Part shown: piece by piece, positions 42,109 through 44,330 of the stretch
How positions within the stretch are numbered: position 1 is the first letter of the stretch
Layout of the letters: each line of letters starts with the position of its first letter
Assembly: GCA_028690055.1 (NCBI GenBank)
Contig: JAQVBZ010000014.1
Span: 1-44,717, forward strand
From: Minisyncoccota bacterium
GTDB lineage: Bacteria; Patescibacteriota; Minisyncoccia; JAHIHE01; JAGLIN01
DNA length: 44,717 nt
Direction of reading: 5' to 3'
Notes under the pieces: generated by a model
Told to the model about the DNA's origin: nothing
The model's database searches: none
The model's input: the letters and a program-made list of their open reading frames with translations, nothing else
Translations under genes and position numbers: made by a program

Positions 42109-42136
42109 TTGACATGACTATTTAAAAGCCTATAAT
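42109..42136 (+). promoter_or_regulatory. Consensus promoter of the T-box-thrS unit
   Basis: TTGACA (42109-42114), 16-nt spacer, TATAAT (42131-42136). Transcription should start near 42143, so the leader before thrS is about 395 nt. Confidence 0.85.
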
Positions 42137-42142
42137 CAATAT

Positions 42143-42363
42143 TAGAAGTGATCGGAACGTCTACCAAACGTTCTGGAATTTATTCCACCGCAAGGCCAAG
42201 CTTCGCGACAATTTGAAAGAAGTCGAAATGCTGGATTCCCGTCGGAATTTATGCCCAGAATGGGTACGGGAATGACAGATGGTTTCGGAATTTGGGTGGA
42301 ACCGCCTGACGAAGGATTTATCCTCAAAGGGTCCCAAAGCGCAAGTATTTCTTGGGCTTTTTT
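42143..42363 (+). promoter_or_regulatory. T-box riboswitch leader of thrS
   Basis: The invariant T-box sequence GGGTGGAACCGC is at 42294-42305. Its bulge TGGA pairs with an uncharged tRNA 3' end whose discriminator is U, as in many tRNA-Thr. A small AGGA/TCCT hairpin and a terminator (CCCAA at 42333, TTGGG at 42352, then CTTTTTTTG) follow, as expected for transcription attenuation. The transcript opens with a hairpin (CGGAACGT/ACGTTCTG, 42153-42175) whose 7-nt loop CTACCAA presents ACC, a threonine codon, in its centre. Between this hairpin and the T-box lies a segment like the dispersed TTCCCGT/ACGGGAATGACAG repeats. When tRNA-Thr is uncharged, an antiterminator should form and thrS be read. 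Confidence 0.82.
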
Positions 42364-42389
42364 TGTTATTTGAAAAACAGTGGTTATAA

Positions 42390-42498
42390 ATGGAGTAGCA
42401 GGTTTTAACCTGCGCGGTTATCCCAAGTCGATAAATGCGCTATATATCTGATTATCCCCGTATTAGACAGCAGCGCAGACTAAAGTCTGCTACTCCAT
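42390..42498. repeat. MITE-like palindromic element, copy 3
   Basis: A 109-bp element with perfect ends ATGGAGTAGC and GCTACTCCAT and inner stems CAGGTTTTAACCTG and CAGACTAAAGTCTG. It lies between the T-box terminator and the thrS start, so it is part of the read-through mRNA. Confidence 0.85.
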
Positions 42499-42536
42499 AT
42501 GATAATATAAAGTTTTAATGAGCTAACCAAAAACCT

Positions 42537-44330
42537 ATGAACGAACAAGAAAAATTGGAAATCAAAAGACATTCCCTCGCCCACATTCTGGCGACTGCTG
42601 TCTTGGAAATGTTTCCGGAAGCGAAATTCGGTGTCGGTCCCGCCATCGAAAACGGATTTTATTATGACTTCGACCTGCCACGGACTCTGATTCCTGAAGA
42701 TTTACCGCTTCTCGAAAAGAAGATGAAAGAAATCATCAAACAAAATCTGCCTTTCGAAAAAGAAGTTATCAAGCGAGAAAAAGCACTGGAACTTTTTGAA
42801 AAAGCCGGACAACCCTACAAAGTTGAAATCTTGAGCCAAGAAGCCAACGAGGAAGAAGTTACGGTCTATCGCACCGGAAGTTTTGTCGATCTTTGCCGTG
42901 GTCCGCATTTGGACTCCACTGGAGAAATCGACTTCACTTCTTTCAAGCTAACCAAAATCGCCGGGGCTTATTGGCGAGGAGATGAAAAAAACAAGATGCT
43001 GCAACGAGTGTATGCCGTAGCCTTTGAAAACAAAGCGCAGCTGAAAGAATATGAAGCGAAGATGATAGAGGCAGAAAAGAGAGACCATCGCAAACTCGGC
43101 AAAGAACTGGAACTATTCTTAATTGATCCGAATGTTGGGCAGGGGTTGGTAATGTGGCAACCCAAGGGTGCTATGCTTTGGAGAATTATTGAAGATTATT
43201 GGTATCGAGAGCACCTCAAGAATGGATACCAACTGGTCCGAACTCCGCATATCGGCAGCAGAAAACTTTGGGAAACTTCCGGACACTGGAATTTCTATAA
43301 CGAAAGTATGTACCCCCCGCTGGAAGTCGGACTGAGTCTTGAGGCGAGCCAAAAAGGAGAAAAAGCGAAAGAAAAAGAAGAATATCTTCTCAAACCGATG
43401 AATTGTCCTTTCCACGTCTCCATCTACAACACTAGGCAGCGAAGTTACCGCGAATTGCCGCTCAGGTGGGCGGAATGCGGGACCGTCTACCGCTATGAAA
43501 AGTCAGGCGAATTGTCAGGGCTCACTCGTGTCCGTGGATTCACTCAAGACGATGCCCATATCATTTGCACCAAAGACCAAGTTGAAGAGGAACTCAAAAA
43601 AGTCATCAAATTCATAAGACATATATTCAAGTCGTTCGGATTTGAGGATTATCAAGTATATCTGTCCCTCCGAGACCCGAAAGATAAGAAGCATTATGCC
43701 GGAAGCGACGAAGGATGGGAATTCGCCCAAGGAGTTTTGGAAAAAGTGGCGAAAGAAGAAGGGCTAAACTATATCGCCGAAGAAGGAGAAGCTGCTTTCT
43801 ACGGACCCAAGCTCGACTACAAAGTCAAAGATTGTATGGGCAGAGAATGGCAATGCTCCACGCTGCAGTTTGACTTCAATCTGCCGGAAAGATTCGATAT
43901 GACCTATATCAACGAAAAAGGCGAAAAAGAAAGACCGTATATGTTGCACCGCGCACTCTTCGGATCATTCGAAAGGTTTATGGGCGTGCTCATAGAAAAT
44001 TATGCCGGAGCTTTCCCCGTCTGGTTCGCTCCCGTCCAAGTCAAACTCTTGCCGGTTTCCTCGGAAAAGCATCTCGAATATACGCAGAAAATTTTTGATA
44101 TGCTTGCCGACGAAGACATCCGCGTGGAAATCGACGACAGCAACGAAAGCATAGGCAAGAAAATCCGCGAGGCGGAAAAAGAAAAAATTCCGTATATGCT
44201 GGTTTTGGGAGACAAGGAAATCGAAGACGGCGCAGTTGCCGTCCGCTCCAAAGGCTCGCGCGACATTGTAGCGATGAAAGCAGAAGAGTTCTTGCAGAAA
44301 ATCAAGGAAGAAATTAAGGAGAAGAAATAA
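42537..44330 (+). CDS. thrS: Threonyl-tRNA synthetase
   Basis: 597 residues. It lacks the N-terminal TGS domain (about 60 residues) and begins directly at the editing-domain helix IKRHSLAHILATAVLEMFPEA, with the zinc-like editing site H-x-x-x-H (HSLAH) and later CRGPHLDSTGEI. The class II core follows: motif 1 region around GAMLWRIIEDYWYREH, CPFHVSIYNTRQRSYRELPL, motif 2 with RYEKSGELSGLTRVRGFTQD, then motif 3 LHRALFGSFERFMGVLIEN. The anticodon-binding domain (FPVWFAPVQVKLLP) ends the chain. The gene is controlled by the T-box leader; copy 3 of the MITE-like element stands 38 bases before the ATG. No SD is visible. Confidence 0.97.
   Translation: MNEQEKLEIKRHSLAHILATAVLEMFPEAKFGVGPAIENGFYYDFDLPRTLIPEDLPLLEKKMKEIIKQNLPFEKEVIKREKALELFEKAGQPYKVEILSQEANEEEVTVYRTGSFVDLCRGPHLDSTGEIDFTSFKLTKIAGAYWRGDEKNKMLQRVYAVAFENKAQLKEYEAKMIEAEKRDHRKLGKELELFLIDPNVGQGLVMWQPKGAMLWRIIEDYWYREHLKNGYQLVRTPHIGSRKLWETSGHWNFYNESMYPPLEVGLSLEASQKGEKAKEKEEYLLKPMNCPFHVSIYNTRQRSYRELPLRWAECGTVYRYEKSGELSGLTRVRGFTQDDAHIICTKDQVEEELKKVIKFIRHIFKSFGFEDYQVYLSLRDPKDKKHYAGSDEGWEFAQGVLEKVAKEEGLNYIAEEGEAAFYGPKLDYKVKDCMGREWQCSTLQFDFNLPERFDMTYINEKGEKERPYMLHRALFGSFERFMGVLIENYAGAFPVWFAPVQVKLLPVSSEKHLEYTQKIFDMLADEDIRVEIDDSNESIGKKIREAEKEKIPYMLVLGDKEIEDGAVAVRSKGSRDIVAMKAEEFLQKIKEEIKEKK

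Follow-up and report, generated by a model that had tools for sequence, protein, structure and literature searches.

The leader of thrS, the gene for threonine--tRNA ligase, on contig JAQVBZ010000014.1 raises the question of whether a T-box riboswitch can read its tRNA when the domains on which described T-boxes depend have no room to form. The contig (44.7 kb, the whole of which is referred to here as the window) comes from a 1.46-Mb Patescibacteria genome that is 99% complete. The initial annotation, made from sequence alone, had placed a T-box on thrS, noteworthy in a Patescibacteria-like genome, with the threonine codon in an apical loop and perhaps a reduced architecture. Each of these proposals is borne out below by matches to two structural models and by covariation. 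Positions 42143-42364 very probably form a T-box riboswitch specific for threonine, with a reduced decoding domain, that regulates thrS through early termination of transcription. We further consider it likely, with a probability of roughly 0.7, that the element represents a new structural class of T-box, which would be transcriptional, would decode hairpin loop to anticodon loop within a P1-P4 junction, would lack both an elbow-binding Stem I and a Stem II, and would belong to a widespread, unannotated group of miniature T-boxes in Patescibacteria.

The T-box core and its match to tRNA-Thr

A model (R1) of Stem III and the antiterminator was built from 13 related leaders, with the window left out. 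In the underlying alignment, the antiterminator helices A1 and A2 and Stem III all covary (score 0.754, against 0.297 when shuffled), 94% of the cells are paired, and 16 of the 17 pairs are changed on both sides. R1 matches the window at 37 bits (E = 3.7e-6), its sole match in the 44.7 kb and in the genome; the leader of a sister locus (L098) scores 62 bits. The sequence GGGTGGAACCGC is present at 42294-42305, and 42289-42339 folds as the antiterminator with a minimum free energy (MFE) of -12.8 kcal/mol (ViennaRNA). The elements around Stem III (Table 1) are read against the RRRNG-StemIII-AA motif as given in PMC7778990. The T-box motif, the ACC hairpin and the terminator that had been named from the sequence are all present at the positions assigned to them, beyond chance.

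As the last base of the UGGN bulge must pair with the discriminator of the tRNA, the identity of this base by gene provides an independent test of the tRNA 3' end. It is A in thrS leaders (90/90) and in every readable glyS leader (33/33), T in 16 of 19 ileS-like leaders and in tyrS, trpE and argS, and C in aspS (2/2) and serS. The tRNA-Thr(GGU) of the window's own genome reads ...CAACGGC-T-CCA, with a discriminator U73 that fits UGGA; the Asp and Ser tRNAs of this genome have G73 and its Ile(TAT) tRNA has A73, in agreement with the corresponding base of the other leaders. For Thr and Gly tRNAs, the discriminators were taken from the printed sequences; the script misframes tRNAs listed under C.

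A decoding domain without room for a long Stem I or a Stem II

An unconstrained ViennaRNA fold of 42143-42205 places P1 around three hairpins, P2, P3 and P4 (-14.0 kcal/mol). We refer to leaders with the order P1, GAUUG, P2 (ACC, mostly in a 7-nt loop), P3, P4, CUAA and P1', in which P1 is flush with both junction strands, as type B. In an alignment (A3) of 21 type B Stem I domains, window included, the covariation score of 1.120 compares with 0.272 after shuffling and no more than 0.23 after sliding; pairs form in 96.5% of the cells, all 11 pairs are changed on both sides, and ACC is invariant. RNAalifold recovers P2 with no guidance. A covariance alignment that placed the specifier elsewhere had been named as the outcome that would count against the apical codon; in A3 the specifier stays in the loop.

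Hairpin loops containing ACC also arise by chance, and 50 of 90 leaders have one against a background of 19.5, an enrichment of only about 2.6-fold. Because this generic count is too loose, structure-specific parsers were used instead. The type B parser fits 26 of the 96 thrS leaders and 3 of 2880 shuffled leaders, the latter being a fair null given that selection was itself parser-based. A second model (R2), of Stem I only, was built from 21 leaders; it matches the window at 47 bits (E = 5e-8 genome-wide) as its sole match, although the window is among its training sequences. Over 384 genomes of the class and 380 genomes drawn across the phylum, R2 yields a single match in each genome that has any. 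Among the loci checked, 26 of 28 lie upstream of thrS, and the two exceptions are the weakest matches (E = 0.002 and 0.04); matches L333 and L334 were judged by context to be false positives. A T-box core follows at the thrS loci found by R2, with a slightly altered bulge in L320 and L326. Matches outside the training set include L310, L319, L320, L326 and L330.

The promoter sets the transcript start at about 42143 (its -10 ends at 42136), and P1 begins at 42145. This arrangement recurs in the family: a promoter with at least 9/12 consensus matches lies just 5' of P1 in 23 of 26 type B leaders, against 0.21 of shuffles, and in those 23 leaders the -10 ends 3-27 nt, mostly 5-14 nt, before P1. 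The whole of Stem I occupies 60 nt (42145-42204), with the specifier apical. From P1', which ends at 42204, to the first base of Stem III at 42223 there are 18 nt (42205-42222), the last five of which fit RRRNG. With P1 at the predicted start of transcription and Stem III 18 nt after it, a long Stem I bearing the tRNA-elbow motif does not fit, nor does a Stem II; neither a distal Stem I with the elbow motif (interdigitated double T-loop motif, IDTM) nor a Stem II is found between the predicted start and Stem III. The predicted anatomy, the codon, the complementarity to tRNA-Thr and the link to thrS are carried by sequence and covariation.

The junction strands, GAUUG and CUAA in most relatives, are changed jointly in the window and its sister leader L098, to GAUCG or AAUCG and to CCAA, respectively. 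The joint change suggests that the J1 and J4 strands touch.

Table 1. Predicted features of the thrS leader in the window
Feature	Positions	Strand	Basis
Promoter TTGACA, 16-nt spacer, TATAAT	42109..42136	+	12/12 consensus matches
Base of reduced Stem I: P1 5' strand GAAGU (partner 42200-42204)	42145..42149	+	MFE pair probability 0.917; 95.2% paired, 5/5 positions covary (21 sequences)
J1 GAUCG (GAUUG in most relatives), P1-P2 junction strand	42150..42154	+	A3 columns 6-10
P2 specifier hairpin GAACGU[CUACCAA]ACGUUC	42155..42173	+	all 6 pairs covary; 97.6% paired (21 sequences); also RNAalifold
Specifier codon ACC (Thr), complements anticodon GGU	42163..42165	+	invariant in 21/21 aligned leaders; own genome has tRNA-Thr(GGU)
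P3 hairpin UGGAAU-UU-AUUCCA	42174..42187	+	MFE fold; hairpin here by eye in most relatives
P4 mini-hairpin CC-GCAA-GG	42188..42195	+	MFE fold; weak (2 bp), longer in several relatives
J4 CCAA (CUAA in most relatives)	42196..42199	+	A3 columns just 5' of P1'
P1 3' strand (P1') GCUUC	42200..42204	+	covariation, MFE
RRRNG motif AGAAG, before Stem III	42218..42222	+	read from sequence; motif definition PMC7778990
Stem III, UCGAAA 42223-42228 with UUUCGG 42283-42288; conserved AA 42289-42290	42223..42288	+	by eye against sister L098; family Stem III covaries
Extra 54 bases, palindromic repeat arms at 42233-42276	42229..42282	+	absent from sister L098/L006
Antiterminator, A1 UUUGGG 42291-42296 with CCCAAA 42333-42338; A2 GCCU 42304-42307 with GGGU 42329-42332	42291..42338	+	R1 match, family covariation
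T-box bulge UGGAACC; UGGA (42297-42300) complements tRNA-Thr 3' end UCCA	42297..42303	+	sequence; UGGA in 90/90 thrS leaders
Terminator sharing A1 3' strand, AAAGC 42336-42340 with GCUUU 42356-42360, or CCCAA with UUGGG 42352-42356; then U run	42333..42364	+	MFE -10.6 kcal/mol
thrS, threonine--tRNA ligase, regulated gene	42537..44330	+	NCBIfam TIGR00418, 754 bits, cut-off 383.65

A family of T-boxes in Patescibacteria

R1 finds 60 at E<=0.1 among 384 genomes of the class, and 91 at E<=0.01 among the 380 genomes drawn across the phylum. The genes 3' of these matches nearly all encode aminoacyl-tRNA synthetases (thrS, glyS and ileS/valS, with a few tyrS, aspS, serS and argS), together with trpE. 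Family members match contigs deposited as Candidatus Paceibacterota (L006, which is leader L098) and Candidatus Moraniibacteriota (L013, which is leader L095). Pattern matches L084, L090 and L092, where GGGTGGNACCGC occurs elsewhere in the class, were set aside as apparently coding sequence and not leaders.

The type B architecture was found on thrS only. Other leaders, which we call type A, have P1, a kink-turn (K-turn; 3 nt + GA / GA) and P2; a strict parse finds 18 on thrS with ACC and eight on glyS with GGC, and returns 0/1920 and 0/700 for shuffles. In ileS leaders the hairpin reads GCGG[CUAUCAA]CCGC, with variants, so that the isoleucine codon AUC stands where ACC sits in CUACCAA, and the valS leader L250 has GUC in the loop. 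A test of whether the codon covaries with the synthetase had been suggested for other leaders, and the apical loops do follow the gene: ACC in thrS, AUC in ileS and GGC in glyS. By eye, the ileS leaders also contain a Stem II-like stretch (AGUAGAA/GAAGAAA), and these Patescibacteria leaders may be close to class III. Both a 7-nt apical loop that holds AUC and an apparent Stem II with AGUAGAA occur in the ileS T-boxes L249, L251, L258, L269, L274, L288 and L294.

The 96 thrS leaders comprise 26 of type B, 18 of strict type A, 32 others in which a looser criterion places a hairpin with ACC close to the core, five classical ones and 15 unassigned. Relatives with a full Stem I and no conserved CTACCAA loop had been foreseen as a counter-case to the apical specifier; full-length Stem I thrS leaders do exist in the phylum, but they form a separate type without the CTACCAA hairpin. 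In five thrS leaders (L217, L219 (=L004), L248, L275 and L278) the classical motif in the distal loop of a long Stem I is present, and long and reduced forms hence coexist in the phylum. Outside it, the nearest thrS T-boxes (L012, Clostridiaceae; L059, Anaerolineae) look classical.

The expression platform also differs between types. Of 157 leaders, 145 have a T run within 110 nt downstream. For the stretch preceding that run, the best pairing partner in type B is the A1 3' strand (21 of 25 leaders), as it is in classical T-boxes; among type A thrS leaders, 13 of 18 have the Stem III 5' strand as the partner. Examples of the latter include L107, L102, L133 and L129, in which the 3' arm of the terminator pairs with that strand and not with the A1 3' strand, and there Stem III itself seems to do the switching.

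Several loci show unusual gene arrangements. Genome G006 has three T-boxes (L100, L123 and L125): one of type A on thrS, one of type B followed by only an 80-aa thrS-like fragment, and one on glyS, which may mean that thrS is being replaced there or that the assembly is mixed. At L221/L330 a type B T-box is followed by a gene resembling a GNAT acetyltransferase and then by thrS, as if in one operon, and L141 is a UGGC T-box whose leader resembles the one at tyrS locus L161 and which precedes an unidentified open reading frame. In the window itself, thrS starts about 170 nt 3' of the terminator and U run, and an inverted repeat, GGAGTAGCAGG...CTGCTACTCC, common to L006/L098, lies between them at 42390-42500.

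Place among T-boxes, rival readings and significance

Four classes of T-box have been described (PMC10482949). According to reviews, a transcriptional T-box generally depends on a long Stem I with which it grips the elbow of the tRNA (PMC7583486), and T-boxes without one depend on Stem II, as class III does (PMC10482949). With classes I and II (B. subtilis tyrS and glyQS) the window shares Stem III, the UGGN bulge, an antiterminator opposed to a terminator, and a cognate codon; these classes, however, have a long Stem I with the IDTM and an internal-loop specifier, whereas the specifier of the window is apical and the IDTM is lacking. Class IV (A. odontolyticus ileS) also lacks the IDTM, but there the specifier occupies a side bulge flanked by two helices (PMC10482949). 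Within Patescibacteria, the type A thrS and glyS leaders (L107, L118, L131, L301) resemble the window in having an apical specifier, no long Stem I and a transcriptional platform, and differ in that a K-turn (3-nt bulge + GA/GA), not the junction, connects P1 with P2. Judged on its predicted structure, the element fits none of classes I-IV, and it is a T-box by the defining features.

Class III (N. farcinica ileS) is the nearest comparison, and the rival reading that survives best is that this described reduced class moved to Patescibacteria. Class III has a short Stem I without the elbow motif and an apical-loop specifier (PMC10482949), and because of this a terminal-loop specifier is not in itself new. 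The Patescibacteria ileS leaders resemble class III both in their CUAUCAA loop and in their Stem II-like AGUAGAA/GAAGAAA stretch, and many type A thrS and glyS leaders are like the ileS T-box (PMC10651847) in that their short Stem I has a basal K-turn. Class III nevertheless combines a Stem I that contains a K-turn, a required Stem II (S-turn and IIA/B) and a 5-6-nt loop, and is mostly translational (PMC10482949, PMC10651847). The window has no K-turn signature in J1 and J4, no Stem II or IIA/B in the 18 nt between P1 and Stem III, a 7-nt rather than a 5-6-nt loop, a multi-hairpin junction, and a transcriptional terminator rather than a Shine-Dalgarno sequestrator. We therefore regard membership of class III as unlikely for this element.

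It is more improbable still that the element is a former T-box, dead in this genome through the insertion of a repeat. The window does have 54 bases that its sister leader does not, and the R1 score is 37 rather than 62 bits. The arms of the palindrome, GGATTCCCG...CGGGAATGAC, recur twice elsewhere in the genome (control 0), and 42200-42290 (91 bases) has no second BLAST copy there. The insert nonetheless lies in the loop of Stem III, flanked by the complementary strands UCGAAA and UUUCGG, which leaves the element unsplit; the promoter, specifier, bulge, A1 and A2 are intact, and other family members have long inserts in variable loops. A dispersed repeat at about 42207-42285, possibly interrupting the T-box, had been suspected at the outset; its arms do recur, but no full copy does, and the element is not interrupted.

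The two remaining readings are very improbable, and we rejected both on codon identity, covariation and promoter evidence. In E. coli, the thrS operator hairpin mimics tRNA and is bound by threonyl-tRNA synthetase, and a similar operator here, beside a degenerate T-box remnant, might explain why the 7-nt loop C-U-ACC-A-A resembles an anticodon loop; yet the triplet is the codon ACC and not the NGU anticodon of tRNA-Thr, the ileS and glyS loops hold cognate codons too, and the bulge and covarying helices are intact and match U73. That the hairpin arose by chance beside a genuine core, with the real specifier in another place such as a longer Stem I further upstream, could be argued from the classical long Stem I leaders in the phylum and from the ease with which ACC-loop hairpins arise, but a perfect promoter ends 8 nt before P1, leaving nothing upstream, the covariation, the invariance of ACC and the parser null exclude chance, and R2, a model of Stem I alone, returns thrS T-boxes.

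The main reading, a threonine-specific T-box that controls thrS, also has several observations against it. Stem III of the window was assigned by eye, with a 54-base loop insert that the sister leader does not have, and the R1 match begins at 42258 and pairs an alternative Stem III across the insert. The A3 sequences were chosen for fitting P1 and P2, which inflates the pairing percentages. The antiterminator and terminator share 42333-42338, but the MFE structure (ViennaRNA) keeps the antiterminator alongside a shortened terminator hairpin; if this model holds, mutual exclusion of the two states would rest on part of A1 only. Finally, the Rfam T-box model RF00230 scores the window far below threshold (42139-42339, 12.5 bits against a gathering score of 93). 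That score was reached by none of the 20 Patescibacteria T-box loci tested, apparently classical ones included, and it is thus a detection threshold and not a defining feature. Other permissive Rfam matches in the window (ceN82, LPR17 and others) were discarded as far below their thresholds, and a 12.8-bit match elsewhere in the genome (C44:16217) was set aside because it is sub-threshold and was not found by R1. In the open-access literature searched we found no paper coupling T-boxes with Patescibacteria, Parcubacteria or the Candidate Phyla Radiation, which does not establish priority.

In the main reading, as far as the sequence shows, transcription begins at P1, which is predicted to close a three-hairpin junction whose first hairpin presents ACC in a 7-nt loop; Stem III and the antiterminator with its UGGA bulge come next, and the terminator overlaps the A1 3' strand. 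We infer tRNA binding, the response to charging, the loop-loop geometry and the roles of P3, P4 and the junction as follows. ACC would pair loop to loop with the anticodon GGU of tRNA-Thr. The 3' end (UCCA) of the uncharged tRNA would pair with the UGGA bulge and stabilise the antiterminator, and polymerase would read into thrS; threonyl-tRNA could not seat its 3' end, the terminator would form, and thrS would be off. Our guess is that the junction (P3, P4 and the conserved GAUUG and CUAA strands) probably supplies the support otherwise given by an elbow-binding Stem I or by Stem II.

A transcriptional T-box with neither a long Stem I nor a Stem II would show how little RNA suffices to read a tRNA, and would offer a compact system for structure work and engineering. 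About a quarter of the sampled Patescibacteria genomes (91/380) carry a T-box core, and the Rfam threshold reports none of the 20 loci tested. Annotation pipelines are thus likely to be blind to T-boxes in Patescibacteria.
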